Of a DNA stretch of 64,000 nucleotides, positions 3,601 through 52,244 are shown piece after piece. Below the pieces are notes generated by a model. It did not search any database. It saw nothing but the letters and a program-made list of their open reading frames with translations, and was not told the DNA's origin. Source of the stretch: Acholeplasmataceae bacterium (GTDB lineage Bacteria; Bacillota_I; Bacilli_A; Acholeplasmatales; Acholeplasmataceae); assembly GCA_030603805.1 (NCBI GenBank), contig JAUVXD010000002.1, positions 124,001 to 188,000 on the forward strand. The letters run 5' to 3'. Position numbers and translations under genes: made by a program. Within the stretch, counting starts at the first letter, position 1. Each line of letters begins with the position of its first letter.

Positions 3601-4299
3601 ATGAGTACAAACAAAAATGATTTCGAATTTGAAAAGGAAGTCGTGGATGAAGCCTTACTGGATAACCCAGAACCAAGATGTCCTGTTGTTTTACTACTCG
3701 ACACATCGTATTCGATGACTGGAAATCCAATCAATCAACTGAGTGAAGGCGTTTATGCACTTTATGCTGCTTTAAGGGATGATGATTTGGCATCGGTTCG
3801 TGTTGATTTAAGTGTCATTGCTTTCGGACAAAATGTCACAGTTCTTCAAAATTTCGCAACCGTCTCTGAATCACAAGCCCCAGAACTTAAAGTCAATGGC
3901 ATGACCCCTATGGGTGAAGCCATTGTTACCGCACTTAAAAACATTGAAAACCGGAAAAATGAGTATCGCAATGCCGGTATATCTTATTATCGTCCATGGC
4001 TTTTTGTCATCACGGATGGTGAACCCACTGATAATGTCCAAGAAGCAAGCATGATGTTACAACAAGCGATTAGTTCTAAGAAAGTCATTTTCTTTGGTAT
4101 TGGTGTTGAAAATGCGAATATTGAACGCTTAAGACAAATATCTGGGTCACCAGAACGTGTCTTTAAACTCAATGGTTTAAACTTTAAAGAACTCTTCCAA
4201 TGGGTGTCTTCATCTTTATCTTCCGTATCCTCATCACGCGTTGGTGATACACTTAAACTTGAAAAACCAAGCGATGATGTCTTCGAATTTGAGGTTTAG
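3601..4299 (+). CDS. TerY-like von Willebrand factor A domain protein
   Basis: This is a 232-residue single vWA domain. The MIDAS metal site is intact: DTSYS (D34, S36, S38), the Thr of GMTPMGEA (about T102) and the Asp of ITDGEPTD (D139). The length and the motif DTSYSMTG match TerY-type cytoplasmic vWA proteins. It is followed two bases later by a PP2C phosphatase and then by a kinase. That is the vWA-PP2C-kinase triad described for TerY-associated phosphorylation systems. In that family the vWA protein is thought to be a scaffold or substrate of the kinase-phosphatase pair. AAAGAGGT precedes the ATG. Any biological output (stress or phage defence) is not shown by the sequence. Confidence 0.88.
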   Translation: MSTNKNDFEFEKEVVDEALLDNPEPRCPVVLLLDTSYSMTGNPINQLSEGVYALYAALRDDDLASVRVDLSVIAFGQNVTVLQNFATVSESQAPELKVNGMTPMGEAIVTALKNIENRKNEYRNAGISYYRPWLFVITDGEPTDNVQEASMMLQQAISSKKVIFFGIGVENANIERLRQISGSPERVFKLNGLNFKELFQWVSSSLSSVSSSRVGDTLKLEKPSDDVFEFEV

Positions 4300-29670: not shown

Positions 29671-30312
29671 CTAGAAAGCAATTATTTCTTGTCCAATTCT
29701 AACACTTACTATACCTATATCAATATATGTTTTTATTTTCGATAAATCAATACCATCATCAATCACTGTGATTTCAACTTTATTAGATATAAAATTAAGA
29801 GAAACACTTATAAAATTGTACTCTTTTATATTAAGTGAAATTGCTTTGAACACTTCTTTTAGTTGTGCATAGCTATATGTTACCTTGATAAATTGAATAC
29901 TTTGATTTGTTAGAATATCAGTCAATTCCGATGGCGCATTTTCAGTTAGACATACAACATAATTGTTGTTTTCATCTAAGTAATACCCGGAAAAAAAGAC
30001 ATTGTATTGTTTATAGACCATTTCAATATAAACATTGGGGAAACTGCCATCATCAAATCTTTCATAATTAAGTTCATTCTTCAAAATATCATTCTCACTT
30101 TCTAGAGCATATACTTTAATCAATGAGTAAGAACCAAAGAATAAGAGCAGTCCGATAACTAAAATTGTGTTAAACTTGATAGGTGCTATTTTCAAATTTA
30201 TGATTTTTTTTCCCTTTAATAAAGAATTAAGATCGTAATAATATTTAACCCAATAACTAAAACATGTAAAAATTACTAATATACCCACCAAACCAATAAT
30301 ATAGTAATTCAT
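29671..30312 (-). CDS. Membrane protein with an outer domain resembling the protease propeptide
   Basis: This 213-residue protein has two N-terminal membrane helices (about 3-22 and 47-67), then an outer domain of about 135 residues. Its central part (YNVFFSGYYLDENN, IQFIKVTYSYAQLKEVF, EYNFISVSLN, NKVEITVID) lines up by eye with the propeptide of the S1 protease at 30919-32070 (FDVLYGGAFFENNE, IRFVKYSLGDLNLVI, FSISSISRSE, NTIIVKVTN). Propeptides of streptogrisin-like proteases act as folding helpers and inhibitors. A membrane-bound inhibitor, sensor or chaperone for the protease is therefore a reasonable hypothesis. It lies 9 bases after the LytTR gene. No known family is recognised. Confidence 0.65.
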   Translation of the reverse strand: MNYYIIGLVGILVIFTCFSYWVKYYYDLNSLLKGKKIINLKIAPIKFNTILVIGLLLFFGSYSLIKVYALESENDILKNELNYERFDDGSFPNVYIEMVYKQYNVFFSGYYLDENNNYVVCLTENAPSELTDILTNQSIQFIKVTYSYAQLKEVFKAISLNIKEYNFISVSLNFISNKVEITVIDDGIDLSKIKTYIDIGIVSVRIGQEIIAF

Positions 30313-30321
30313 AATACCCTC

Positions 30322-30771
30322 CTACATTCCGATTTTTTTTCGAAAACTCATTAAATACATACGAGATACATATACAGTAATCTTATTTTTCAGAAGTATC
30401 TTCAATTTTGAGTTATATTGGGGAATAATCTTCATTATCTTTTCTTTAGGTATAATTTGGGATTTGTTTATCCGTATAATATCTCTATTTTCAAAAATCC
30501 CTTCAACTTCAAATAATCGTTCTTTAATTTTATACTCACCAAATGATGTATGAACAATGATATCATGTGCAAAACTTTCGATAAGATAAAAGTCATCATA
30601 ATTGATTATCCTTTTTTCTCCTTTTGTGTTGAATCCAATAAGATACTCTTGTTGAAAATCAATTTCTTTAAAAAGCAAGTTAGCATCATCTGAGACACTA
30701 AATCCAGCTTTCTCGAGCATATGTTGATATTTAGCATAATTTTCATCCCTACAAATAATTTTCAATTTCAT
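30322..30771 (-). CDS. LytTR-type DNA-binding regulator
   Basis: This is a 149-residue protein. About residues 50-145 match a LytTR domain: INYDDFYLIESFAHDIIVHTSFGEYKIKERLFEVEGIF, then IIRINKSQIIPKEKIMKI and KITVYVSRMYLMSFRKK. The N-terminal 45 residues are a small domain without a receiver Asp pattern, as in stand-alone LytTR regulators that pair with membrane proteins. It precedes the propeptide-like membrane protein by 9 bases, so the membrane protein may control it. LytTR regulators commonly control secreted virulence factors and bacteriocins. Direct targets here are unknown; the neighbouring protease is the obvious candidate. Confidence 0.88.
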   Translation of the reverse strand: MKLKIICRDENYAKYQHMLEKAGFSVSDDANLLFKEIDFQQEYLIGFNTKGEKRIINYDDFYLIESFAHDIIVHTSFGEYKIKERLFEVEGIFENRDIIRINKSQIIPKEKIMKIIPQYNSKLKILLKNKITVYVSRMYLMSFRKKIGM

Positions 30772-30918
30772 AAAATCCCCTTCAAAATGATTATAAATGA
30801 ATCACAAAAATATAGCGCAAGTTTTCCATATGTTACACCTTTTATCTCATAAGTTGCAAAAACAAGGAATTTCAATAAACATAATTAAAATTCCCTGCTT
30901 TCATTATTTATTCAATTT

Positions 30919-32070
30919 TCAATAGTTTGTTAAGTTCAAGTCAGAAAAAATGTGATTAACGGTTGTATACACAGTTATAGTATCATTCCCTCCACTAAGA
31001 ACACCCATAACTATATGATGAGCAGTAGCACTTCCTGCATACATCCAGAATGTTAATGCTGCACCTGAATCACCTCGTATCGCAACAATATCAGTCAAAA
31101 TTGTATTTGTAAGTATAACTCCTGACACATTAACTGTAGCATAAGTAGATGTAATTACTCCATTTAACTTACCAGATTGAGAACCATACATCCAAACACT
31201 TGTTCCTTGGACTAAATAAGAAGATGGAGCAGAAGCAGCATGATATGTATCACCATTCATAAACATTCTCGTCGGTAACCATTGAGTTCCAAACAAAGGA
31301 TTCCTCAACCTAATAAATGCAGCATCTGTAGATCCTGAAAATTTCCATGTGGAAGTTCCGCCAACATCCCCAACATGATAACCATCATATTCTACGTTTG
31401 TGCCGTTTGATGAATTTGAACCAGAGACACAATGACCAGCTGTTACTACACCCGGTCTACCCTGACTATCCTTAGCTGCAAACCCAGATGTGCATTTACC
31501 AGGGGTACTAGATTTAAAGGTAAGTTCTTTACCATTAATAACATACTTAACTAATGTTTCAAATTCTGATTGTTCATCTATTATAATAATATTGCTCAAT
31601 TGTGCTATTTCTTTAATTGCTTTTTCATTTTCAGGATAATTGTTAGTGACTTTAACGATGATGGTATTTAGACTTTCACTCCTGCTTATTGAACTTATTG
31701 AGAATTCATTCATATAATCTTTCAATACATCAATAACAAGATTAAGATCACCTAGTGAATATTTGACAAATCTAATATTGAAATCATCTATGAGATTCAA
31801 CTTACTAGCTATATTAAATTTTTCAGTAACAACATTGATTGTTATTTCATTATTTTCGAAAAATGCTCCTCCATAAAGAACATCAAAATCCCGATGTTGT
31901 TTATTTGAATTTAAAAAATCATCAAGTTTAGCCAACTCTCGAGTTTGTTGCATTGCGTGTTCAATTTCATTCTGCTCATTTTGATTGATTGCTTTAACAG
32001 ATATAAATGAAATACTGAACATAGTAAGAATGGTTATACATATGTTAAATAAGATTAATATTTTCTTCAT
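30919..32070 (-). CDS. Secreted S1 family (streptogrisin / alpha-lytic-like) serine protease
   Basis: This 383-residue protein has a signal peptide (about 1-27), a propeptide of about 160 residues and a C-terminal chymotrypsin-fold domain that begins near GKCTSGFAAKDSQG. The triad is visible: H213 in TAGHC, D249 in STDAAFIRL, and S335 in RGDSGAAL. The catalytic domain resembles bacterial S1 peptidases of the streptogrisin group, more usual in actinobacteria and some Firmicutes. GAGGAGAAA precedes the ATG. It is encoded upstream of the LytTR and membrane genes, with a gap of 147 bases. Its leader region contains a terminator-like hairpin (32305-32330) and part of a duplicated segment. Confidence 0.88.
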   Translation of the reverse strand: MKKILILFNICITILTMFSISFISVKAINQNEQNEIEHAMQQTRELAKLDDFLNSNKQHRDFDVLYGGAFFENNEITINVVTEKFNIASKLNLIDDFNIRFVKYSLGDLNLVIDVLKDYMNEFSISSISRSESLNTIIVKVTNNYPENEKAIKEIAQLSNIIIIDEQSEFETLVKYVINGKELTFKSSTPGKCTSGFAAKDSQGRPGVVTAGHCVSGSNSSNGTNVEYDGYHVGDVGGTSTWKFSGSTDAAFIRLRNPLFGTQWLPTRMFMNGDTYHAASAPSSYLVQGTSVWMYGSQSGKLNGVITSTYATVNVSGVILTNTILTDIVAIRGDSGAALTFWMYAGSATAHHIVMGVLSGGNDTITVYTTVNHIFSDLNLTNY

Positions 32071-34679: not shown

Positions 34680-34708
34680 AAAACGACAAAATTGCTCATT
34701 CTGTCGTT
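34680..34708 (-). terminator. Terminator of serine recombinase 1
   Basis: The stem AACGACA (34702-34708 on the minus strand) / TGTCGTT (34682-34688) overlaps the recombinase stop and is followed by a short T-rich tail. Recombinase 2 has the same CGACA...TGTCG hairpin in the same position. Confidence 0.65.
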
Positions 34709-36306
34709 AACTTACCAATAAACTTATAATGAATATCAACTTGTTGCTTTCTCACATTTTCTTCATAATCTGGTTCATGAACAATTATCTTATCAATGAA
34801 TTCATTTAATATTCTTGAATCAAGTTCCTTGATATCTGTATATTTTTTAATAATACTCATAAACTGATTAGCGTTTTTTGTCTTTGAACTTGCTTCAATA
34901 ATCCTGTTTGTTTTTTCTTCATTGCTCATTATTAAACTTTCTTGTTCCTCTTCATACGCTTTAAGTAAGTTTCTAAACCTTTTATCATCTACTTTATCGA
35001 TAGCGTGATCCTCGTATAACTTGCTGATGACTACATCCAAAGTTTGAATCCGTTTTTGATTAAATGATATTTCATTTTTCAATTGTGCAATACCGTTTTT
35101 AATGTTACTGTTATCTTTATCCTGGATTTGACTTAGAAACACTTTTTCGTTTAGATTAGCTTGTTTGATATGTGCTATGATATCATCTAAAACAACATTA
35201 TATAAATTCTCATAATTAATGTAATGCATCGAACAATAAGACTTGCCAAAAGTTCTAAATGTTGTACATGCATATTGTCCATAACTTTTTCTATCCTTAG
35301 TTCTTTTAAATGATAGTGTTCTACCGCAATCTGGACAGCTCAGTAGTCCAATAAAGATTTGTGGTTCGTCTGCATCTTTTAACTTCTTCTTTTTAACTGA
35401 AATGATTTTTTGAACCTCATCAAATGTTTTTTCATCAATGATTGATTCATGCATATTTTTAACCTCTATCCATTCATCTTTAGGTAACTTGATTAGACTT
35501 CTATCTTTAAATGATTTGGATGTGTTTTTATTACAGACAATATGTCCTAAGTATTCTCTGTTTTTTAAAATGCTAAAGATTGTTTGTTGACTCCAGTCAT
35601 AGGGATATTTAACAAACTTCTCAGAAACATACTTTCCTAAGTCCTTCATCATTTTGGCTCTAGGTTTTAAAATGCCCTCTTTTTTAAAGAGACTTGCTAT
35701 TTTAAAAGGTGTAAGACCGTCTAATGCATAATCAAAGATTCTTTTAATAATAGGGGATGTTTCTAAATCTATGATTAAGTGATATTTATTCTCGGGATCT
35801 TTCTTATAGCCATATGGTGCATAAGGACCGGTAAATTCACCTTTTAATGCCTTAGAACGATATGCTGATTTAATCTTCTTACTGATGTCTTTGGCATACC
35901 ATTCATTAATGATATTTTTAAATGGTGTGAAGTCATTAGATTCTTTGTTGCTGTCAACACTATCATTAATCGCGATAAATCTAATGTTGTGGTTTGGAAA
36001 GTAAGATTCAATGTAGAAACCAGTTTTCAAATAATTACGACCTAGTCTTGAAAGATCTTTAGTAATAACCGTACTGACTTTTCCCTTTTCAATATCACTT
36101 AGTAATCTTCCAAAATCAGGTCTTTCAAATGAAGTCCCTGAATATCCGTCATCCACATAAAATTCATGATTTTCAAAGCCATTAACTATTGCATACTCTG
36201 CTAACATTTCCTTTTGGTTCTTAATACTTAAGCTATCACCGTTGTAATCATCATCTCTGGATAACCTACAATAAAGTGCTGTTATGTTGTTTGCTTGCTT
36301 CATCAT
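34696..36306 (-). CDS. Large serine recombinase 1
   Basis: This 536-residue protein has an N-terminal resolvase domain with the nucleophile Ser in YCRLSRDDDY, DDGYSGTSFERP, and TKDLSRLGRNYLKTGFYIE. A recombinase domain (KALKGEFTGPYAPYGYKKDP, YPYDWSQQTIFSILKNREYLGH) follows, then a zinc ribbon (SCPDCGRTLSF...YCSMHY) and a coiled coil. This is the TnpX/TndX-type large serine recombinase layout, which inserts and excises DNA between short att sites. It is a close paralogue of the gene at 37825-39426. It lies between toxin-like tail 1 and immunity gene 2, inside the Rhs array. Its key residues look intact. Confidence 0.93.
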   Translation of the reverse strand: MMKQANNITALYCRLSRDDDYNGDSLSIKNQKEMLAEYAIVNGFENHEFYVDDGYSGTSFERPDFGRLLSDIEKGKVSTVITKDLSRLGRNYLKTGFYIESYFPNHNIRFIAINDSVDSNKESNDFTPFKNIINEWYAKDISKKIKSAYRSKALKGEFTGPYAPYGYKKDPENKYHLIIDLETSPIIKRIFDYALDGLTPFKIASLFKKEGILKPRAKMMKDLGKYVSEKFVKYPYDWSQQTIFSILKNREYLGHIVCNKNTSKSFKDRSLIKLPKDEWIEVKNMHESIIDEKTFDEVQKIISVKKKKLKDADEPQIFIGLLSCPDCGRTLSFKRTKDRKSYGQYACTTFRTFGKSYCSMHYINYENLYNVVLDDIIAHIKQANLNEKVFLSQIQDKDNSNIKNGIAQLKNEISFNQKRIQTLDVVISKLYEDHAIDKVDDKRFRNLLKAYEEEQESLIMSNEEKTNRIIEASSKTKNANQFMSIIKKYTDIKELDSRILNEFIDKIIVHEPDYEENVRKQQVDIHYKFIGKLTTE

Positions 36307-37824: not shown

Positions 37825-39426
37825 TTAAATGATACCTACAAACTTATAGTAGATATCTATCCTTTGTTGTTTTTCTCCATTTACTTCTTTTGCATCATAA
37901 ACCAGTATCTTTTCAATCATTTCATTTAAGATACTTGCATCTAGTTCTTTAAGATGCTTGTATTTCTTAATGATACTTAAGAAATTTTCAGTATCATCCT
38001 TTTTATCTTTATACTCACTTAACTGTAATGTCAATTCGTTAATATTTTCTTTGATACTCTTTTGTTCAACTTCATAGTCCTTTAAGAAAATTATAAAGCG
38101 TTCTTCACTAATCTTTTCATGCATTCGATCCTCATACATCTTTTTAATCAGTGCATTGATATCTTCTACTCTTTTCTCAAACTTGAGTATTTCTTTTTGA
38201 TACCTATTTAAATCCTTTTCATGTTTAACTTGATTTGATGCTAGCATATGTTTTAAAACTGTTTCTTCATTGATTTTAGCGTGCTTTAAATGTTTGTTGA
38301 TATCTTCTAAGATCATACGATAAAGCTTTTCATAACTAATATAGTGGGTTGTACAATAACCTTTACCAAATCTTCTATAGGTGGAACATGCATAAGCACC
38401 AAAACTCTTTCTATTATTGTATCTGGAAAAGGATAGGGTTTTACCACAATCAGGACATCTAAGAAGTCCTACAAACATTTGATAAGTTGTTGTTTCTTTG
38501 ATGTTTGTTCTTTTTGCTGTAAGCATTGGTTGGATGGTATTAAACGTTTCTTCATCTATCAGTGCTTCATGTGTGTTTTTAACAATGATCCAATCTTCTT
38601 TTGGTACATTGATTAATGTTCTATCTTTAAATGATTTAGATCTATTTCTATTACATACTAAGTGACCTAAGTATTCCATATTGCCTAATATAGCATAAAT
38701 ACTTCTGGGACTCCAATCATAGGGGTGTTTAACAAACTTATCCATGACATATTTACCATGGTCTTTAATAATTTGTGCTCTGGGTTTTAATATCTTATCT
38801 TTATTAAGTATCATGGATATCTTAAACGTTGTTAAACCACTTCTTGCCAGTTCAAATATACGTTTGACAACTGTTCCGGTTTCAGGGTTAATAAGAAGTT
38901 GATGCTTATTGTTTGGATCTTTCATATAACCATAGGGTGCGAAAGGTCCCGTAAATTTACCTTCTAGTGCCTTGGTGTGATATGCTGATTTTATTTTCTT
39001 ACTAATATCCTTGGCATACCACTCATTCATGATATTTCTAAAGGGTGTAAATTCTTGATGTTCTTTGTTACTATCCACACTATCATTAACTGCGATAAAG
39101 CGTACCTTGTTTTCTGGGAAGTAGTTTTCCAAATAATAACCAGTTTTTAAATAATCCCGACCCAATCTTGATAAGTCTTTAATAATGATAGTACCTACTT
39201 TACCTTTATCAATGTCCCTAAGTAGATCTTGAAATCCCGGTCTTTCAAATGAAGTGCCAGAATAACCATCATCAATATAAAACTTCGTATGATTGAATAG
39301 ATTTTGTTTAGCATATTGTTCCAGCATCTGTTTCTGGGTTTGGATGCTGGCACTATCACCATGATAATCATCATCTCTTGATAATCTACAATAAAGTGCC
39401 GTGATTTTATAATTTGCTGCTGTCAA
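37825..39426 (-). CDS. Large serine recombinase 2
   Basis: This 533-residue paralogue of recombinase 1 has the same domain order. The resolvase domain has YCRLSRDDDYHGD, DDGYSGTSFERPGF and KDLSRLGRDYLKTGYYLE. The recombinase domain has GKFTGPFAPYGYMKDP and YDWSPRSIYAILGNMEYLGHL. A zinc ribbon RCPDCGKTLSFSR...YCTTHY and a coiled coil follow. The two recombinases share long blocks but differ throughout, so they are not a recent duplication. It lies between toxin-like tail 2 and immunity gene 3, as recombinase 1 lies between tail 1 and immunity 2. It is probably active in its own mobilisation or in cassette exchange. Confidence 0.93.
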   Translation of the reverse strand: MTAANYKITALYCRLSRDDDYHGDSASIQTQKQMLEQYAKQNLFNHTKFYIDDGYSGTSFERPGFQDLLRDIDKGKVGTIIIKDLSRLGRDYLKTGYYLENYFPENKVRFIAVNDSVDSNKEHQEFTPFRNIMNEWYAKDISKKIKSAYHTKALEGKFTGPFAPYGYMKDPNNKHQLLINPETGTVVKRIFELARSGLTTFKISMILNKDKILKPRAQIIKDHGKYVMDKFVKHPYDWSPRSIYAILGNMEYLGHLVCNRNRSKSFKDRTLINVPKEDWIIVKNTHEALIDEETFNTIQPMLTAKRTNIKETTTYQMFVGLLRCPDCGKTLSFSRYNNRKSFGAYACSTYRRFGKGYCTTHYISYEKLYRMILEDINKHLKHAKINEETVLKHMLASNQVKHEKDLNRYQKEILKFEKRVEDINALIKKMYEDRMHEKISEERFIIFLKDYEVEQKSIKENINELTLQLSEYKDKKDDTENFLSIIKKYKHLKELDASILNEMIEKILVYDAKEVNGEKQQRIDIYYKFVGII

Positions 39427-40335: not shown

Positions 40336-41988
40336 CTAGAAGTATGGTATTAATCTTATTGTTGCTATATTTGATTTTCTACCCATACCAGAAATTAAAT
40401 CATATGCCCAGGCAATTTCAGCTCCCATCATTGGTCCCCAAATAGCATCGAACACTTTGTAACCTGTAGGATCTGCAAAACTAAATAATCCTGATCCAAA
40501 TGATATTAAAGCACCACCTAAAGAAATTTTATCTCCATGAATGCCAGCTTGTCCTAAATATGCCCCTAAGGATAGAGTTCCATCAATACCTGCCATAATT
40601 GCTCGTTGTCCATAAGTCCCAAGTTTAGCAATTGCTCCAACTTTTGCTCCAATGGCACCAGATATAGCTCCAGTTATCGAACCTAGCATGAATCCTGTAG
40701 AGGCCTTATTTGAATCGAAATGAAAACCATCTTCATCGAGTGAAACACCACTAATAATTCCAACGGCTCCACCGACAGATGCACCCAAGAATGCACTTCC
40801 CAATATAGCAGCTGCGGCACCTCCTGTTAAAACCGTTGCTACCCCCAAACCAACAATTATTCCTATGCCTATTGTCCATTTTAACCATTCAGGCATATTA
40901 CCGCTGGGGTCGGAGTACATAACAGGATTATTTCCACAATAAGCATAAAGATTTAAACCTTGCTCACTGGATGGATCTAGATAGTTTATAGAATCTGCAC
41001 TAATAAATCTTCCAATACTTGGATCGTAATATCTTGAATTGAGATAGTAAAGTCCTGTTTCTAAATCTAATCGATAACCTCGATAACGATATGGATTGAT
41101 ATTTGCGATACCTATTCCGCTATCCCAAAGGTGTACAATATTCCCCCATGCATCATATCTATATCTTGCTACTGTATTGCCAGATGCATCGACAATCTCG
41201 ATGATATCTCCTTGAAGGTTCTTGATATAGAAATACTCATCACCATTATAGTTCATTGATAATAGAGATCCATCAACATCATATGTATAGTATATAACAT
41301 CATTTCCTGTTTTTTCAAACAAAACTAAAGAACCCTCTAAAAAATACTCAGTAGTGGTAGTTCCATTAGATTTAGATGTCCGAATCCCTTGATCATTATA
41401 GGTATATGTATAGGTAACACCACCTATGATATGTTCAACTAATCTTCTACCTTCAAAGTCAAAAGACTGATTGGTATCTGATGTAATACTTGTGATGTTA
41501 CCAATGGAGTCATACGTGTAATTCGCTGTTTTTTGTAAAATTCCACTCACATAATATTCAATATAGGTAATCTGATCTTTCCACCCTGATGTCTTGTAAA
41601 ATAATCTAGTTTCGCTTAATGGAGTACCTGATGGCGTGCCTGTCGTATATGCATAGCGTTTAATCGATGTGATATTTCCTCGGTTGTCATTTGTGTTTGA
41701 ATCGCCATAGTCATCATAAGTATAAAGGATAGTTTGCTCATAGTTGGTTGTTTTGATGTTTTCTCGAATTAATCGATTAAAGCCATCATAAACATATTGA
41801 TAGTTCTCTATTTCAACCAATAATGCATTCTTAATGGATATTTCTACGATGTTACCTAAAGCATCATAGGCGAAATGATGTGTATATTGAACATTGCCAT
41901 CTTTTTTATAAGTGATGGATGCGACAATGAGACTTGCGTTACTGTTTAATTTCCATACCAATCCAATTTTGTATATATAGAGCATCAA
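40336..41988 (-). CDS. Truncated Rhs core with toxin-like tail 3
   Basis: This 550-residue ORF starts inside an Rhs repeat region. The first 16 residues (MMLYIYKIGLV...) are not Rhs; from NASLIVASITYKKDG it is nearly identical to the long Rhs gene up to NNPVMYSDPSGN (about residue 360). It holds YD repeats and the Rhs core with YRGYRLDLETGLYYLNSRYYDP. The last 190 residues differ from the other tails: hydrophobic Gly/Ala-rich (GIGIIVGLGVATVLTGGAAAAILGSA), then LGTYGQRAIMAGIDGTLSLGAYLGQAG and WGPMMGAEIAWAYDLISG. No signal peptide and no ribosome site are seen. It looks like a recombined partial copy carrying tail 3. Confidence 0.8.
   Translation of the reverse strand: MMLYIYKIGLVWKLNSNASLIVASITYKKDGNVQYTHHFAYDALGNIVEISIKNALLVEIENYQYVYDGFNRLIRENIKTTNYEQTILYTYDDYGDSNTNDNRGNITSIKRYAYTTGTPSGTPLSETRLFYKTSGWKDQITYIEYYVSGILQKTANYTYDSIGNITSITSDTNQSFDFEGRRLVEHIIGGVTYTYTYNDQGIRTSKSNGTTTTEYFLEGSLVLFEKTGNDVIYYTYDVDGSLLSMNYNGDEYFYIKNLQGDIIEIVDASGNTVARYRYDAWGNIVHLWDSGIGIANINPYRYRGYRLDLETGLYYLNSRYYDPSIGRFISADSINYLDPSSEQGLNLYAYCGNNPVMYSDPSGNMPEWLKWTIGIGIIVGLGVATVLTGGAAAAILGSAFLGASVGGAVGIISGVSLDEDGFHFDSNKASTGFMLGSITGAISGAIGAKVGAIAKLGTYGQRAIMAGIDGTLSLGAYLGQAGIHGDKISLGGALISFGSGLFSFADPTGYKVFDAIWGPMMGAEIAWAYDLISGMGRKSNIATIRLIPYF
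40916..41940. repeat. Rhs core duplication, left copy
   Basis: About 1,025 bases nearly identical to 43735-44762, in the same orientation. Identity stops abruptly at both ends, inside coding sequence on the tail side and at NASL on the other. It covers the YD repeats and the conserved Rhs core. Confidence 0.85.
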
Positions 41989-42101
41989 AATCCATAGTCT
42001 ACCAACTAATTAGTAGTTTTCTTGGTAGACTCTTTTTTATACAAAAAAATGCCCTAAATGGGCATAAATTTGCTTAATTAGCTCGTTTTATCGAACCAAT
42101 T
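41989..42101. other. Hairpin-rich spacer between Rhs copies
   Basis: This spacer holds an inverted repeat AGTCTACCAA (41996-42005) / TTGGTAGACT (42022-42031), followed on the plus strand by TTTTTT, which would be a terminator for plus-strand transcription although no plus-strand gene exists here. It also holds a minus-strand terminator-like hairpin ATGCCC/GGGCAT (42049-42065) followed by seven T. The first may be a remnant of a lost insertion element or gene. Confidence 0.5.
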
Positions 42102-42299
42102 CAAGATTAATTTGGAGTCTCTGTTAACCTTAAAGGGTCGTGTTTTTAGGGGTTCTTTAACCTTAACTGGTAAGAAATTGCCAATTCGAGAAAAATCGAG
42201 TAAGTAGTGGTATCTATGGGTAAATCATGGAAAACAGTGGACGTACTACAACTGGTAAGAAAATAACCTAAATTGGTAAATAGTGGAAAAATCGAGAAA
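42102..42299. repeat. Module-end repeat, copy 2
   Basis: Matches 33321-33516 over about 195 bases in the same orientation. It lies downstream of immunity gene 4 (42593-43108). The DNA between 42300 and 42592 shows no gene that I can support. Together the two copies bracket the 9-kb part of the array that holds both recombinases and tails 1-3. Confidence 0.75.
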
Positions 42300-42592
42300 G
42301 TATTTACCCAAAATCTTCTACTTTATACGAAATCACTTTGATTCATTTAGATAGTTTGAATACTCAGAAAATTCAATATTGCTAATGCACTCCTAACAAA
42401 CTGGCCAATTCCTGTTTTTCATATAATAGCAAAAAGCAATTTAGAAAATGTTCAACAGTGGTTGTCTATTGGTTTTATATGTTCTAATCACTTTATCTTT
42501 TATAAAGATTTATTTAGTCAACTTCACTTTTTGTATACCCTTATCATTGTTTTAAACTTTTCATTAGATGCAATATGTTTTTGTGCAAATGT

Positions 42593-43108
42593 CTATACTA
42601 TTTTACCTAATTTAACAAATATATCTTGCCATCTTTTTTTAATTGATTCATCGTCATATTTTATTTGAGTCTTAACAAATTGATAAAACTCTCTATAGTA
42701 ACGTATTTCTTTCTTGTCGTTGTCAAATATCCTTTCAGTAAGGCTAATGAACTCAGTAGCATAATCATTAATTAAGATTCCAAGAGCACAATAATAATCT
42801 GTTGCTTTATTACCATTTTCTGCATATAAGGACATCTGAAGTAGTTGATCAAAAGAAGGATATGGCAATCTACAATAAGAAACTTCTAACCCCCACCCCA
42901 AATCGATTAAATATCTTTTTATCCATTTGCTATTATCTTTCGGGTTAACATACATGTTATCTTGACTTGATATTGCTAATCCAAAATCTTCTGGTTTTGT
43001 TTTGTCAAAACGAAAACTCATGTGAAATTTCACAAATTCAGAATATTCGAGATCATTTTTGTTTGAGCATTTATCTTTCTTCATTGATAATAAATCGATT
43101 GATTTCAT
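42593..43108 (-). CDS. Putative immunity protein 4 (soluble)
   Basis: This 171-residue soluble protein has no membrane segment. It has aromatic, charged composition (KFHMSFRFDKTKPEDFGL, DLGWGLEVSYCRLPYPSFDQLLQMSLY). GGAG precedes the ATG, and it lies 13 bases after the end of the long Rhs gene. It is in the position of the cognate immunity gene of the main Rhs toxin, and its solubility agrees with a cytoplasmic toxin. No named immunity family is recognised with confidence. Confidence 0.58.
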   Translation of the reverse strand: MKSIDLLSMKKDKCSNKNDLEYSEFVKFHMSFRFDKTKPEDFGLAISSQDNMYVNPKDNSKWIKRYLIDLGWGLEVSYCRLPYPSFDQLLQMSLYAENGNKATDYYCALGILINDYATEFISLTERIFDNDKKEIRYYREFYQFVKTQIKYDDESIKKRWQDIFVKLGKIV

Positions 43109-43121
43109 TAGGTATCTCCAT

Positions 43122-46100
43122 TTACATAAAAATTAATTCTTTCAACATTAAGAAAACATACTCTACGGTCCAGAAGACAGAATTTAGATTTTGAGAATAA
43201 ACAAAAGCATATGATGTTCCTTGAGCGGTATTAGCAAAATTTGCTGAAGCTAAATCCCAAAGAGGTCTCATTGCCTCCCAATTACCTGCTGTTGTCATTG
43301 ATTGCAAATGTTGTCCTGTTCTAGTCATCTCAATTGTTACTCCACCAATTCTATTAGCATAATCTTGCGCTGCATTTTTTGCCAAATCTCCTCCTGACCA
43401 GAAGACATGTGAACTCTGATTTATTGCATTACTCCAATTGTCTATTACCATTTTTCCAGCCATACCAATTCCTCCAGTAGTCACAGTTGTAGCCATTATT
43501 TGCGTCCCAACTACAACAGCTGAAGTTGATGCAAAAAAACTACCTGCAACAGTTGCTGCATATGCAGCTCCTAAACCAGTACCTATTAGTCCACCTGCAG
43601 TTGCGCCAATTGCAATTCCTGCCCAAACATTATTATTATTACTTGATGCTATAATTCCACCTACTACAGCTCCAATTACCGCTCCAATGATTCCAGTTAA
43701 TATCAAGAATGGAAAATTACCAGTGTTATCCATATACATCACAGGATTATTCCCACAATAAGCATAAAGATTTAAACCTTGCTCACTGGATGGATCTAGA
43801 TAGTTTATAGAATCTGCACTAATAAATCTTCCAATACTCGGATCATAATATCTTGCATTGAGATAGTAAAGTCCTGTTTCTAAATCTAATCGATAACCTC
43901 GATAACGATATGGATTGATATTTGCGATACCTAATCCGCTATCCCAAGGGTCGATGATATTATTTCCCCATGCATCATATCTGTATCTTGCTACTGTATA
44001 ACCAGATGCATCGACAATCTCGATGATATCTCCTTGAAGGTTCTTAATATAGAAATATTCATCACCGTTATAGTTCATCGATAAAAGAGATCCATCCACA
44101 TCATATGTATAGTATATAACATCATTTCCTGTTTTTTCAAACAAAACTAAAGAACCATCTAAAAAATACTCTGTTGTGGTAATTCCATTAGATTTAGATG
44201 TCCTGATTCCTTGATCATTATAGGTATATGTATAGGTAACACCACCTATAGTATGTTCAACTAATCTTCTACCTTCCCATTCAAAAGACTGACTGGAATC
44301 TGATGTGATACTTGTGATGTTACCTATCGAGTCATAGACATAAGTCGATGTCTTTTGAAGAGTGCCACCCACATGTTCTTCTACTCGTGTAATCTGATCT
44401 TTCCATCCTGATGTTTTATAGAATAGTATAGTTTCACTTAATGGAGTACCTGATGGCGTGCCTGTCGTATACGTATAGCGTCTAATCGATGTGATATTTC
44501 CTCGGTTGTCATTTGTTTTAGAATCGCCATAGTCATCATAGGTATAAACGATGGTTTGTTCATAGTTGGTTGTTTTGATGTTTTCTCGAATTAATCGATT
44601 AAAGCCATCATAAACATATTGAAAGTTCTCTATTTCAACCAATAATGCATTCTTAACTGATATTTCTACGATGTTACCTAAAGCATCATAGGCGAAATGA
44701 TGTGTATATTGAACATTGCCATCTTTTTTATATGAGATGGATGCGACAACGAGACTTGCGTTTCCACGTCCTGAAGCGGGTGTTTTATATGTGAAATGTT
44801 CAGTGAAACTCAAGGTTCCAATCAAGAGTTCAATATATTCAAGTCTTCTCAATGAATCTGTTGTATCGATATGGTTTATTTTACTGATGGTTTCATTTCC
44901 AGTTTCATAGATGGTATATAGATACTCACCTGTATTTTGGTCATAGTAAAAATAGACTTCTCGTTCAACTTGTTCAACTTCATAAGCGTATTTGTTGATG
45001 TTACCCTGCTCGTCATAGGTATACTTAATTCGGTTTCCATGTTTATCGACAACTTGCTTGATTCTGCCAGCTAAATCATAGGTGTAGAAAAAGATGTTAT
45101 TTGATTGTAGTTCCTTATATATCGCTAGTCTACCAGATTGATCGTAGACATATTCAAAGCGATCAACACCATTAAATTTAATTAACTTGATTTGGTCTTC
45201 ATTGTTATAGACAAATGTATACGTATCTCCAGAACCATATGTTTGGGTGTTTACTTTATGTGTTGAATAGGTGAGTCCATATTGTTCGTTAAGATAGGTC
45301 AATGTCACATAGCTGACACCAGAAATTCTAATATTGGTGATGCGGTCTAAGTGATCATAATGGAATGTATAACTTATACCATCAATGGTAATACCCGATA
45401 ATCGACGATTGCTATCATAGATGAAATCTTTGACAATCGTATATTGATTTGAAATATCTGTTTCAACTTGTTGTGTTAAGAAACCATAGTTATTATAGTC
45501 GAAAGTCTTTAAATGATTGTTTGCATTGATTACCGTTTCCACAAGTCCATTTAGATGATTTGTCTCGGCTGTTGTTGTGTTTCCAAATTCATCTGTTTGT
45601 GATGCAATGTATTGATAATCTGTTGTATAGGTTGTGTTTGATTTAAACCACTCTCCATCTATACCATTATCACCAATTAAAGTTTCTGTAATTTGTTTTG
45701 ATGTGCTATGATAGGTAAATGCAGTTCTTACGTTATTAGCTGCTATTTCAGTGATACGATTCTGATAATAATCTATTTCTATCGTTTTGTTTCCTTCTTG
45801 AATGACAGTTACATTCCCATTGCTATCTCTATCATAGGATGTAACAACGCCATTTTTATTTATCTTACTATCTAAATAACCATTCCCTAAATTATAATTG
45901 TATTCTGTACTTAATTTGTCATGATAGAGTTGGATATTATCAAAGTATGCAGTGCCTTCTCCTTGAAATCTTCCATATACTTTAACACTAAGTACTTGAT
46001 AAACATCAATCTTAAATGATCTCATTTGATATTGCCATTCTTCAGTCGATGTATTGAATGGTAAATAGATAAACCCAATATCAGGTGTATCACTTGAAGG

Positions 46101-47465
46101 ATACTCAGAATCATAATATTCATAGAGGATATAGATTCCAAAAAATCTGCCATCACTGATGTGATACCCATTTGAATTCACATAACCTTTGTGAGGGACT
46201 GCATTCGCTTTGCCCCATCCACCAATGATATATGTTTCACCTATTGTGATGAAACTTGTGATGTCTTGATAGAAAAACTTATTACTTCCTCCATCTCCTT
46301 CAATCTTGATAGATTTCTCGCCTAAAATATCTTGATTTGCACCTGTGGATGAATTATCACTGATGAGTGTTGCTCCATTGAGTATCCAATTGCCTGTTCC
46401 ATATTCAAATGATGGGTTCGTTAAACTATTGTATCTTGTATCCATAAATCCTTCAGTTAAGGAGATATTGTCAAAATACGCACTTGTCAAATATCTAGCA
46501 TTAGTTAGTTTAACTCTAACGGTCTGATCCGTTGTAATTTCAAATTGAAGGCTTAAACTTCTCCATTCCCCAACAGAGTTAGTTGAGTCAGAAAAAGTTC
46601 CTAAACTTGTATCAACACTTATACTTGATGTACCTGTAACTAATTCATTCGTGTTTTTTACAACACCTTGTAAAGTATAAACACCAGCTTTTAAAAATAC
46701 ATCCTGATATGCGAAAATTGAACCATTATTATTAATTCGTAATGATGCATCTCCCATCGCTGACTCACTTGTGACCTTCTGTATTGAACCACTACCACTT
46801 TGAAACCATCTTAAGTTATAATCAATATTTTCAAATCCGTGATTATTGATGTAATTCACTTGTTGCTTCATGGTTTCTGATGATTCGAGTAATGCGTGTA
46901 CTGTGTAGTAATTTGGTTGATAAGGAATCATTTGAGCATCGCCAAGGAGGTCAACATGGCTCAAATCGTAAGTAAACAATCCTGCATATCTGTTATATGT
47001 GGCGTTTCCATAAGAATCGAGCGCATTAATGGTATGCCCATAACTATCAAATAGATATTCTATCCACTCATATTTATGATTAACATATCGTGTTTTCCCA
47101 TGATAATAGATAATATCTATATTTGCTAAATTGGCTGTTCCTGATGTTGTATCACTTATTTTGACTGTATTGACTCTGTAATTTAAATCGTACGTGTATG
47201 TGACTTGATGCTTACTTGTGTTATTGTATGCATAGTTTAAACTGTTTGTCGTAGAATTAAAACTATAGGTTAACGTATCTCCTGAGGAAAATAAGGGTGT
47301 TGATTGTCCACTTTTGTTATACCTTTGTGTAATTTGGTATAATCTTGGATTTGTTGACGCAGTGTTATATGTATATGTCTTATCTTGTACAATATTAAAA
47401 GTTGCTGTCCCTGGTTGTTTCAGCTTGAGTTCAGTTTTTGTCATGAGATAATTGGATCCATTCAA
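43122..47465 (-). CDS. Rhs protein, C-terminal part: CBM-like domains, YD repeats, core and toxin-like tail 4
   Basis: These 1,447 codons continue in frame from the TGA at 47484; the apparent TTG start is not a real start. Two carbohydrate-binding-like domains lie about residues 205-335 and 345-515. Many YD repeats (TYDEQGNINKYAYE, YDSIGNITSITSD) follow, then the Rhs core (RYRYDAWGN, YRGYRLDLETGLYYLNARYYDP). After NNPVMYMDNTGNF come about 190 residues of tail 4: a Gly-rich hydrophobic region, then HVFWSGGDLAKNAAQDYANRIGG and EMTRTGQHL. The tail pattern FWSGG...A..YA...GG..IEMT occurs in polymorphic toxins of Firmicutes, but I cannot name its enzymatic class. Separate expression of this part would need internal initiation. 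Confidence 0.85.
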   Translation of the reverse strand: MNGSNYLMTKTELKLKQPGTATFNIVQDKTYTYNTASTNPRLYQITQRYNKSGQSTPLFSSGDTLTYSFNSTTNSLNYAYNNTSKHQVTYTYDLNYRVNTVKISDTTSGTANLANIDIIYYHGKTRYVNHKYEWIEYLFDSYGHTINALDSYGNATYNRYAGLFTYDLSHVDLLGDAQMIPYQPNYYTVHALLESSETMKQQVNYINNHGFENIDYNLRWFQSGSGSIQKVTSESAMGDASLRINNNGSIFAYQDVFLKAGVYTLQGVVKNTNELVTGTSSISVDTSLGTFSDSTNSVGEWRSLSLQFEITTDQTVRVKLTNARYLTSAYFDNISLTEGFMDTRYNSLTNPSFEYGTGNWILNGATLISDNSSTGANQDILGEKSIKIEGDGGSNKFFYQDITSFITIGETYIIGGWGKANAVPHKGYVNSNGYHISDGRFFGIYILYEYYDSEYPSSDTPDIGFIYLPFNTSTEEWQYQMRSFKIDVYQVLSVKVYGRFQGEGTAYFDNIQLYHDKLSTEYNYNLGNGYLDSKINKNGVVTSYDRDSNGNVTVIQEGNKTIEIDYYQNRITEIAANNVRTAFTYHSTSKQITETLIGDNGIDGEWFKSNTTYTTDYQYIASQTDEFGNTTTAETNHLNGLVETVINANNHLKTFDYNNYGFLTQQVETDISNQYTIVKDFIYDSNRRLSGITIDGISYTFHYDHLDRITNIRISGVSYVTLTYLNEQYGLTYSTHKVNTQTYGSGDTYTFVYNNEDQIKLIKFNGVDRFEYVYDQSGRLAIYKELQSNNIFFYTYDLAGRIKQVVDKHGNRIKYTYDEQGNINKYAYEVEQVEREVYFYYDQNTGEYLYTIYETGNETISKINHIDTTDSLRRLEYIELLIGTLSFTEHFTYKTPASGRGNASLVVASISYKKDGNVQYTHHFAYDALGNIVEISVKNALLVEIENFQYVYDGFNRLIRENIKTTNYEQTIVYTYDDYGDSKTNDNRGNITSIRRYTYTTGTPSGTPLSETILFYKTSGWKDQITRVEEHVGGTLQKTSTYVYDSIGNITSITSDSSQSFEWEGRRLVEHTIGGVTYTYTYNDQGIRTSKSNGITTTEYFLDGSLVLFEKTGNDVIYYTYDVDGSLLSMNYNGDEYFYIKNLQGDIIEIVDASGYTVARYRYDAWGNNIIDPWDSGLGIANINPYRYRGYRLDLETGLYYLNARYYDPSIGRFISADSINYLDPSSEQGLNLYAYCGNNPVMYMDNTGNFPFLILTGIIGAVIGAVVGGIIASSNNNNVWAGIAIGATAGGLIGTGLGAAYAATVAGSFFASTSAVVVGTQIMATTVTTGGIGMAGKMVIDNWSNAINQSSHVFWSGGDLAKNAAQDYANRIGGVTIEMTRTGQHLQSMTTAGNWEAMRPLWDLASANFANTAQGTSYAFVYSQNLNSVFWTVEYVFLMLKELIFM
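43735..44762. repeat. Rhs core duplication, right (parental) copy
   Basis: About 1,028 bases; partner of 40916-41940. The three-base length difference is one extra codon in the NNIIDPWDSG segment. Confidence 0.85.
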
Positions 47466-49835: not shown

Positions 49836-50447
49836 ATGCGCTATATTAAAGAGATAAGGGCATTTGAATACATTGAAAATAAATCTCTATTTATTGGAAT
49901 TCTTTTTCCACTTGAAGATCCTAAAGAAATCAGTCAACTTATTTTAAAAGCGAAAGACATGTATCCAAAGGCTAATCACTATTGTAGTGCATCTATTTAT
50001 GGAGATTCTGGTGAACTTCATACGGCTGATGACAACGGGGAACCTTCTAGAACTGCAGGAATTCCCATCCTTGAAGTCTTGAAACACCATCATGTCACCA
50101 ACATCTTATGTGTCGTAGTTAGATATTTTGGTGGCATTAAACTTGGTGCCTCTGGGCTTGTTCGTGCTTATACCAAAACGTCTGCAGAAGTCTTGAAGGC
50201 TGCAACTTTCTATGAGAAATCCTTTGTTTCTTCTTATGAAATTGAATTTGGATATGCGCTTGTTCATACCATGGATCATATACTAGAAAAAAAGGCAACG
50301 ATTTTAGAGAAAATATTTCTCGAAAACGTCACCTATAAATTCGTGTTAACTCAATTAGATTCAAGTTTCTTAACCGATATGTCGCATCAGTTTATTTCTT
50401 TAAAAGAAGGTCCAAAAGAAATCTTATGGACTAAGGTCTCATCTTAA
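49836..50447 (+). CDS. YigZ/IMPACT family protein
   Basis: This 203-residue protein has an N-terminal UPF0029 domain (KSLFIGILFPLEDPKEISQLI, HYCSASIYGDSGELHTADDNGEPSRTAGIPIL, CVVVRYFGGIKLGASGLVRAY) and a ferredoxin-like C-terminal domain. The DNGEPSRTAG and RYFGGIKLG motifs are diagnostic. The start was set at 49836, where GGGGGGTG precedes; a -10 TATAAT is at 49815-49820. Function in bacteria is unclear; the eukaryotic relative IMPACT regulates translation. The gene marks the right end of the island and is tail-to-tail with the CotH gene. Confidence 0.92.
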   Translation: MRYIKEIRAFEYIENKSLFIGILFPLEDPKEISQLILKAKDMYPKANHYCSASIYGDSGELHTADDNGEPSRTAGIPILEVLKHHHVTNILCVVVRYFGGIKLGASGLVRAYTKTSAEVLKAATFYEKSFVSSYEIEFGYALVHTMDHILEKKATILEKIFLENVTYKFVLTQLDSSFLTDMSHQFISLKEGPKEILWTKVSS

Positions 50448-51991
50448 GAATCAAAATTTCCTTCAAGATATGCTTCTTGATGCATGGCATCAAACATCCA
50501 TGCAGCACGGTCTTCTATAAACTTATATACATAACCTACTTGACCTGAAAAAGTTGGAATCTGCCACATAGGATATGGATTTGGCCAAACATAATGTCCT
50601 AAAGTAGGCCATTTTGCAAAGTTTCTATTAGCCATTTCAGATATCGAATCAGCAAGATGTGGAATCATCTCTAAAATAACTGGGACAACATCATAATAAA
50701 AGTCTAAATACTTTTCTTTAAACTTGTTACGTACTTCGGGAATTCTCATCATTAAAATGAACATTCTATTTTTATATTGTCTCATACCATAAAAATTTTC
50801 TGGTCCATAATCAATATAATCGGCATTACCCATCGCAAGATCAAAATCCCAAAGGGGTCCATATTTAAGTGGACCATCTTTTTCTTTATACATGAAAATA
50901 CTTGACCAGCCCACATCCACATTTTTTACAAACTCATGGATGATAAAATGCTCAATCCAATTGTCTATATCAATTAAGTCTTCATATCCAGATTGTGCAA
51001 TTAAGGCTTGTTCAACTTGGACAAAATAGTCTTCAATAAAGTATAGTTGATTGATACTATAATTAGGATCACTTGTATCTGGTTCTTTAATCTCATAAGG
51101 ATGTCCACTAACCACAAACCAGTCAAACCCAGGCTCTGTCCCTGACTCATAGAGTCTCATGTCTTTTTCCATGAAATATCCTGTATTAAGCTCTCCTGGA
51201 ATGGATTCTATAAAAAATTTATTCGGATGAACCTCAACATGCTCAGTTAAGACATAAACCCCTAAGTATTCGTTATTGATATAAAGCTCAACAAATCTAG
51301 TTTGAATGGTATAAGGTAAATTGGGCATCATCGAAACCATTTTTTGAGTGATGACATTTCTCATTAAAGATTTATCTGAATATTCCGCAAGTAGCACATA
51401 ATTCTTCGCTTCTGGCATGCCTAAAATCGATGTATTCTTATCAAATCTTAAACGGTAAGGCTTTTTCTCAAAGGAGTACCATGTGGAATTGCCTCGACCT
51501 CTAATTTGTGCAGATGAGGTTTCATGCTCAACTTGGAGTTCACCGTTGATATTTGTTTCAACCCTGACATCCGTTTGATTATAGATTGTTTTATTAATTT
51601 GGTGTCTTTGAACAGGCATGGTTAAATAAATCTTTGTTTGATTTCTTCCAGATTCATAAGCCAGATGGTAGAAACTATGACTAAAAGTCTTTGAATTTCT
51701 ACCACGTTTAATCGTAAAATTCATCACAGCCATTTGATCATAAAATGGCGTTTGATGGATATATCTGGTTGTATATGTTTGATCTTTTAATGTATACGTA
51801 ATATCATAATTTTCAAACTGTGGTAAATCAAAATCACGATTGATCGTACTCGGTAAAGTTTCTTGAATGAGTTCAGCAATTTCTTCAATTTCTTTGGTGT
51901 AGTCTGTTGTAACTTCAGTTAAAGAATCATTGCAGGCAGCAAGAAAAGTAAGCAAAACAATGCTTAAAATCCATAACGTTAGTTTTTTCAT
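50444..51991 (-). CDS. CotH-like protein kinase lipoprotein
   Basis: This 515-residue lipoprotein has a lipobox LAAC, followed by a CotH-type atypical kinase fold. Blocks are RGRGNSTWYSFEKKPYRLRFD, LGMPEAKNYVLLAEYSDKSLMRN, NNEYLGVYVLTEHVEVHPNKF and the metal-binding GPLWDFDLAMGNADY. In Bacillus, CotH phosphorylates spore coat proteins, but the family is wide and includes secreted kinases. No spore context is visible here, so targets may be other exported proteins. The start at 51991 has GGAGGG upstream; the longer frame runs into a terminator. It is the only gene after the terminator of the atp operon. Confidence 0.88.
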   Translation of the reverse strand: MKKLTLWILSIVLLTFLAACNDSLTEVTTDYTKEIEEIAELIQETLPSTINRDFDLPQFENYDITYTLKDQTYTTRYIHQTPFYDQMAVMNFTIKRGRNSKTFSHSFYHLAYESGRNQTKIYLTMPVQRHQINKTIYNQTDVRVETNINGELQVEHETSSAQIRGRGNSTWYSFEKKPYRLRFDKNTSILGMPEAKNYVLLAEYSDKSLMRNVITQKMVSMMPNLPYTIQTRFVELYINNEYLGVYVLTEHVEVHPNKFFIESIPGELNTGYFMEKDMRLYESGTEPGFDWFVVSGHPYEIKEPDTSDPNYSINQLYFIEDYFVQVEQALIAQSGYEDLIDIDNWIEHFIIHEFVKNVDVGWSSIFMYKEKDGPLKYGPLWDFDLAMGNADYIDYGPENFYGMRQYKNRMFILMMRIPEVRNKFKEKYLDFYYDVVPVILEMIPHLADSISEMANRNFAKWPTLGHYVWPNPYPMWQIPTFSGQVGYVYKFIEDRAAWMFDAMHQEAYLEGNFDS

Positions 51992-52008
51992 GCTTCCCTC
52001 CTTTTTTT

Positions 52009-52036
52009 TAAAAAAGCATAGGGGTTTCCTATGCTT
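52009..52036 (-). terminator. Terminator of the atp operon
   Basis: On the minus strand the stem AAGCATAGG / CCTATGCTT (52014-52036) is followed by TTTT. It overlaps the DUF1146 stop codon. Confidence 0.8.
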
Positions 52037-52244
52037 ATGAGATATAGCCCACGAGAAGTTGTGATAATTTGACCATAATTTCTGCAAGCAAATGGGCAAA
52101 GATTAAAGACAGCAGGAAATAAGCGGCTTTAATCTCCCAAAGTTTAAATTTTTCAAACTTATCTTCTAAATGTATTGCTTTAAGAATTCTTAAACATAAC
52201 GTAAAGAAGATGAGTAAAGATACGAAATAGATGACTGCATCCAT
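52035..52244 (-). CDS. DUF1146 family membrane protein (YwzB-like)
   Basis: This 69-residue protein has two membrane helices (AVIYFVSLLIFFTLCLRIL and AAYFLLSLIFAHLLAEIMV) around a charged loop. Size and position match DUF1146/YwzB, which in Bacillus also lies at the end of the atp region. It starts 12 bases after atpC and shares its terminator. Function is unknown. Confidence 0.82.
   Translation of the reverse strand: MDAVIYFVSLLIFFTLCLRILKAIHLEDKFEKFKLWEIKAAYFLLSLIFAHLLAEIMVKLSQLLVGYIS

Follow-up and report, generated by a model that had tools for sequence, protein, structure and literature searches.

We found that the LytTR regulator and the membrane protein (MP) encoded beside a secreted protease in this window (the whole stretch of 64,000 nucleotides analysed) probably form a variant of a LytTR Regulatory System (LRS) with an unexpected and informative receptor domain, in which the outer domain of MP and the propeptide of the neighbouring protease are true homologues. 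We propose, with a confidence just short of even, that this tethered propeptide is a receptor which binds, and perhaps inhibits, a protease of the alpha-lytic type, the neighbouring one first, and so relieves LytTR. The three genes are intact and are transcribed from the minus strand in the order S1 protease, lytTR and MP. The protease (30919-32070, 383 aa) is a secreted enzyme with signal peptide, pro region and catalytic domain. The LytTR transcription regulator (30322-30771, 149 aa) matches the Pfam LytTR domain at 2.7e-16 over residues 55-147, with no receiver domain and no further family matched in Pfam. MP (29671-30312, 213 aa), which starts 9 bp after lytTR, is composed of a first TM helix, a short basic cytoplasmic loop, a second TM helix and an extracellular pro-region domain. 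Orthologues of MP were found in Peloplasma and in related uncultured genomes, the nearest named relative with one being Peloplasma aerotolerans (G005), of the same genus as the window genome; Peloplasma is wall-less, and P. aerotolerans is a free-living mollicute (PMC11122141).

The protease belongs to the S1 enzymes of the alpha-lytic protease/streptogrisin type by fold, catalytic triad and pro region. It matches Pfam Trypsin at 6e-6 and, by phmmer, NAPase (2oua) at 2e-5; residues 179-383 of its model match streptogrisin B and alpha-lytic protease with Z of 17-18, and the triad H213, D249 and S335 is invariant in 11 homologues. The mature catalytic domain occupies 30922-31554 (about residues 173-383, with a cut site estimated by analogy with alpha-lytic protease) and the pro region 31555-31989 (about residues 28-172, with an estimated C-terminal end). 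The alpha-lytic pro region is absent from the VIA match list of the protease model because the catalytic domain fills that list. Rice NARROW LEAF 1 structures were among the best structural matches of model residues 102-383, an overlap which extends beyond the catalytic domain into the pro-region half of the protein.

A similarity between this propeptide and the outer domain of MP had been claimed in the original prediction, and it is real although pairwise BLAST of MP against the protease missed it (E 5.2, not significant), so that profiles were needed to test it. When a profile of MPs only was searched against 160 genomes of the order, the top non-orthologous match over the outer domain lay in a propeptide, that of a trypsin-like protease of G030 (E 1e-3 per genome); three other matches of comparable E-value fell on model positions 12-85, the TM part. 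Another profile was built from 12 protease propeptides and no MP, most of its proteases having been gathered with a mixed profile (A4). It scored the MP ectodomain of the window at 48.8 bits and its orthologues at 21-52 bits, while none of 10,000 shuffled copies exceeded 16.2 bits, and it reached the MPs at E 1e-5 to 1e-14 in a pool of 759 ORFs. With only the three genus propeptides, whose proteases had been found without MP, the result was borderline (15 bits against a best shuffle of 14). HHalign of the MP family against the propeptide family returned a probability of 98% and E 4e-14 over 97 columns. The family profile A8 (21 rows) reaches the alpha-lytic pro region 2pro_A by sequence at E 1.4e-6, the next, unrelated match standing at E 0.2. 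Neither the MP domain nor the propeptide matched a pro-region model in Pfam at E up to 1, and the MP lineage shares about 13-26% identity with the propeptides.

The most powerful independent test came from structure. An AlphaFold2 model of MP was built from five MP-type sequences (MPs and one lipoprotein relative), with no protease among them. Searching the PDB with this model by Foldseek placed the alpha-lytic protease pro region (2pro/4pro/3pro) at ranks 1-4, with a probability of 1.00 and E 1.2e-3 to 2e-3, and VIA aligned the model to the same pro region (4pro residues 30-166) with Z of 9.9-9.6, the best (9.9) over 108 residues at 3.0 Å, the other rows aligning to the ectodomain having Z of about 5. 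In the predicted models the order of elements E-E-H-E-H-E-E-H-E is common to MP residues 107-206 and propeptide residues 66-166; different folds had been named as the refuting outcome, and the two models agree instead. The MP domain shares with the alpha-lytic pro region the fold, the strand order, the C-terminal end and the sequence profile match, but it is stand-alone, membrane-anchored and associated with a transcription regulator rather than being the N-terminal part of a protease, and the first 30 residues of the alpha-lytic pro region have no counterpart in MP, which has a TM helix instead.

In the membrane part of MP (30109-30306) a basic loop (residues 23-47, with 6 K/R and 1 D/E) is flanked by two TM helices, as read from hydropathy, charge and alignment A9, in which F47 is invariant and P44 is found in all five TM-bearing MPs. 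The ectodomain carries 11 basic and 21 acidic residues; from these charges, the loop is expected on the cytoplasmic side and the domain on the outer side, and the loop/TM part is the sole region able to reach LytTR. The extracellular pro-region domain (29674-30048, residues 89-213) ends about 7 residues past its last strand. Since the aligned part of 4pro reaches residue 166, with which that pro region ends, the free C-terminus of MP sits at the place of the cut that would separate a pro region from its protease. The alpha-lytic pro region speeds protease folding, and its C-terminal junction crosses the active site (PMC2829044). In the MP model pLDDT stays at about 90 as far as residue 200, is low from residue 209 on and falls below 50 in the tail; this low-confidence C-terminal tail may have a role at the protease active site.

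As judged from sequence, the lytTR-MP pair has the hallmarks of an LRS, namely a soluble LytTR, an adjacent two-TM membrane protein and direct repeats before a putative -35. LRS are widespread two-gene operons in which direct repeats, spaced by 11-13 bp, stand right before the -35 of the operon (PMC6193735). As in HdrRM and BrsRM of Streptococcus mutans (PMC6193735), the gene of a soluble LytTR regulator without receiver is directly followed by that of a membrane protein, and 9-bp direct repeats with 12 bp between them lie upstream of the operon promoter. Unlike in these systems, the membrane protein carries a protease pro-region ectodomain and no DUF3021/DUF2154 by Pfam or NCBIfam, a protease gene stands beside the operon, and the hosts are wall-less Mollicutes as well as members of another family in their class. 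DUF3021/DUF2154 are common in LRS membrane proteins without defining them, one of the five S. mutans LRS lacking both (PMC6193735).

The repeats of the window, GCAACTTAT-12 bp-GTAACATAT (30828-30857, minus strand), lie upstream of lytTR at the same site as in four relatives, and direct repeats 12-13 bp apart precede lytTR in all five LytTR-MP operons: GTAACATAT-12-GTAACATAT in G005, GCATTATAT-12-GTAACATAT in G002 (the weakest of the five), GCAACTTAA-13-GCGACTTAA in G013 and GTAACTTAT-12-GTAACTTAT in G637, which belongs to another family and whose site, read after the pattern had been fixed, fitted it. In the operons read, a -35-like hexamer about 10 bases past the repeats is followed by a TATAAT-like -10; in the window this putative LRS promoter (30790-30817, minus strand), inferred from the sequence and from LRS spacing, has the -35-like CGCTAT 10 bp after the repeats, then 16 bp and the -10 TATAAT. 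A degenerate repeat pattern occurs once per genome in the window genome (G000), G005, G013 and G637, always at lytTR, and 18 further genomes searched after the first five gave one match. In the genus member G001 the pattern is found upstream of an unrelated lipoprotein gene (L108:829-858), and no LytTR-MP pair was found there; given this match, the pattern is specific but imperfect.

Between the protease gene and lytTR there is an intrinsic terminator, a hairpin with a T run (30856-30901, minus strand; folding -18.0 kcal/mol). Hairpins of -20.3, -8.0 and -8.3 kcal/mol occur at the same place in three genus relatives, just before the repeats in all four genus members. With a terminator ahead of the repeats, the protease is a separate transcription unit, and no LytTR repeats were found before protease genes. 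Thus, the visible LytTR output is the lytTR-MP operon itself. The interpretation first offered, with an output to transcription, is partly supported: the pair is an LRS-type regulator unit with direct repeats, but the only output visible is its own operon and not the protease.

The whole trio, which the original prediction had proposed to look for in other genomes, is conserved at 34-37% identity in a divergent relative (G013) and was found broken in P. aerotolerans, where a relic (L013:7462-8716) retains the last 16 protease codons, a lytTR with a stop and a frameshift, and an MP with a frameshift near its start; this joint decay counts as one event, in one genome. The order lytTR then MP is the same in G002, G013 and G637. 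Two of the five pairs, those of G002 and G637, have no adjacent protease; in G637 the contig covers about 530 bases ahead of lytTR. The G002 genome encodes a different pro-region protease at another place, and in G637, which is about 90% complete, no other pro-region protein was found at E 1e-4. MP occurs alone in G638, and G003 has the protease without the pair. In the domain tree one clade (96/97) unites all MPs with one lipoprotein, and the neighbouring propeptides (98/98) stand outside it, so the MP domain is an old separate lineage. The description of MP as a membrane-bound copy of the propeptide is right as to the extracellular pro-region domain and needs refining as to origin: that MP is a recent duplicate of the neighbouring propeptide is rejected by this tree.

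A class-level search found the domain in many S1 proteases and also outside proteases. One protein of G281 (L072:6232-7554, plus strand) carries an HTH_3 DNA-binding domain, then a TM segment and, on the outer side, a pro-region domain, and is by its predicted architecture a membrane-tethered regulator with a propeptide-like sensor; in the tree it groups with a protease of the same family (92/75), which suggests a second, separate recruitment of the domain. In G477 (L071:1073-3073, minus strand) an ECF sigma factor, an RsgI-like anti-sigma factor and a pro-region lipoprotein stand in a row, and in G210 (L075:2383-4146, plus strand) an S1 protease with pro region is immediately followed by a small lipoprotein which is a stand-alone pro-region domain (3652-4146). 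Small secreted proteins of about 180-195 aa are also mainly stand-alone pro-region domains (L078:6869-7411, L079:7185-7724, L080:4037-4621). It is conceivable, though we would sooner doubt it than assert it, that pro regions were more than once turned into extracellular receptor domains for bacterial regulators, as in the LytTR-MP pairs, the HTH-TM fusion and the lipoprotein beside sigma and anti-sigma genes, and make up a general sensor class which recognises S1 proteases, secreted or foreign, by binding of the zymogen type. In the open-licence literature searched we found no description of a LytTR-protease-propeptide system or of a pro-region sensor, nor of this use of the fold, detached from proteases and attached to regulators.

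The free alpha-lytic pro region strongly inhibits its protease and acts on folding in trans. Known pro regions fold and tightly bind their protease, so that a tethered one would be a ready receptor and inhibitor. In the mechanism that we propose, MP would keep LytTR inactive via its short basic cytoplasmic loop, and its pro-region domain would bind mature alpha-lytic-type protease outside the cell, that of the neighbouring gene first, in the manner of a free pro region and probably with the C-terminal tail in the protease active site. Protease binding, or cleavage of the bound MP, may then relieve LytTR; freed LytTR would bind the direct repeats before its own operon and lead to more LytTR and MP, the extra MP serving as a tethered inhibitor which shields the surface of the wall-less cell. 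LytTR could also act on further genes. A receptor role is consistent with the coupling of the same domain to regulators elsewhere, in the HTH-TM fusion of G281 and beside the sigma and RsgI-like anti-sigma genes of G477.

The main uncertainty of this model is the ligand, which may be the own protease, a foreign protease or something else. For the own protease argue the pro-region fold of MP, obtained from an alignment without protease sequences, the trio kept in G013 and the joint decay in P. aerotolerans; against it stand the pairs of G002 and G637 without adjacent protease, the G003 protease without the pair, and the lack of repeats before the protease. Those two orphan pairs, and the absence of another pro-region protein found in G637, would suit a receptor facing foreign proteases, one that senses or neutralises alpha-lytic-type enzymes of competitors or predators, the neighbouring protease being incidental or a competition partner. 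The old lineage of MP, separate from the neighbouring propeptides, fits this too, and RsiV, which senses and inhibits lysozyme, is a precedent (PMC5014341); however, protease adjacency is kept at 34-37% identity in two species and was lost by joint decay in a third, and we consider such a receptor unlikely. Slightly less likely again is that the pro-region fold is a mere scaffold reused to sense another ligand (a peptide, a small molecule or envelope stress), with no protease bound. That the domain turns up in a diversity of regulators, in lipoproteins and in small secreted proteins, and that the MP lineage is divergent, would agree with this, but the loci are linked with proteases in several lineages (the window, G013, the G005 relic and the G210 lipoprotein), and the strand order and the C-terminal end are conserved.

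Two further explanations appear improbable. Because the alpha-lytic pro region catalyses protease folding (PMC2829044), MP might be a tethered foldase helping the protease to fold or stay at the membrane, with LytTR adjusting its supply; this is the least probable explanation of all, as the protease has a complete pro region of its own and MP exists in other genomes without such a protease beside it. For the first of these reasons, of the roles first suggested, a protease held, sensed or chaperoned at the membrane, chaperoning is the least likely. That MP and LytTR have no functional link to the protease and are its neighbours by chance is barely less improbable: the transcription units are separate and orphan pairs exist, but a common domain family together with an adjacency conserved in divergent genomes argues against coincidence.

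RsgI-type anti-sigma factors have ectodomains that resemble modules of the secreted enzymes under their control. They share with MP the character of membrane regulators with enzyme-module-like ectodomains, and the pro-region lipoprotein of G477 adjoins an RsgI-like gene; they are of another regulator class, and their best-known modules bind carbohydrates. RsiV of Bacillus subtilis, an anti-sigma factor that is also a receptor for lysozyme (PMC5014341), is similar to our preferred model in proposed logic, its ectodomain occupying the active site of an enzyme, inhibiting it and signalling, while the target is lysozyme and the pathway is sigma/anti-sigma and not LytTR. Unlike in RsiV and RsgI systems, the partner gene of MP is lytTR, and no sigma gene was found among the neighbouring genes scanned. 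SpeB-Spi and the staphostatins (PMC3462683) likewise combine a protease gene with an adjoining dedicated inhibitor gene, but their proteases are cysteine proteases and their small inhibitors, thought to be cytoplasmic, have no transcription signalling.

Although LRS input signals are given as unknown (PMC6193735), in the LRS variant described here an alpha-lytic-type protease can be predicted as ligand from the fold of the receptor domain, and the input question is thus directly testable with two purified proteins and one reporter. As to the surroundings of the locus, two large serine recombinases with DUF4368 (34696-36306 and 37825-39426, minus strand) and then RHS-repeat genes (40336-47465) form an adjoining low-GC, possibly mobile region, and a CotH kinase-family protein is encoded in this mollicute at 50444-52099 (minus strand; Pfam 1e-41).
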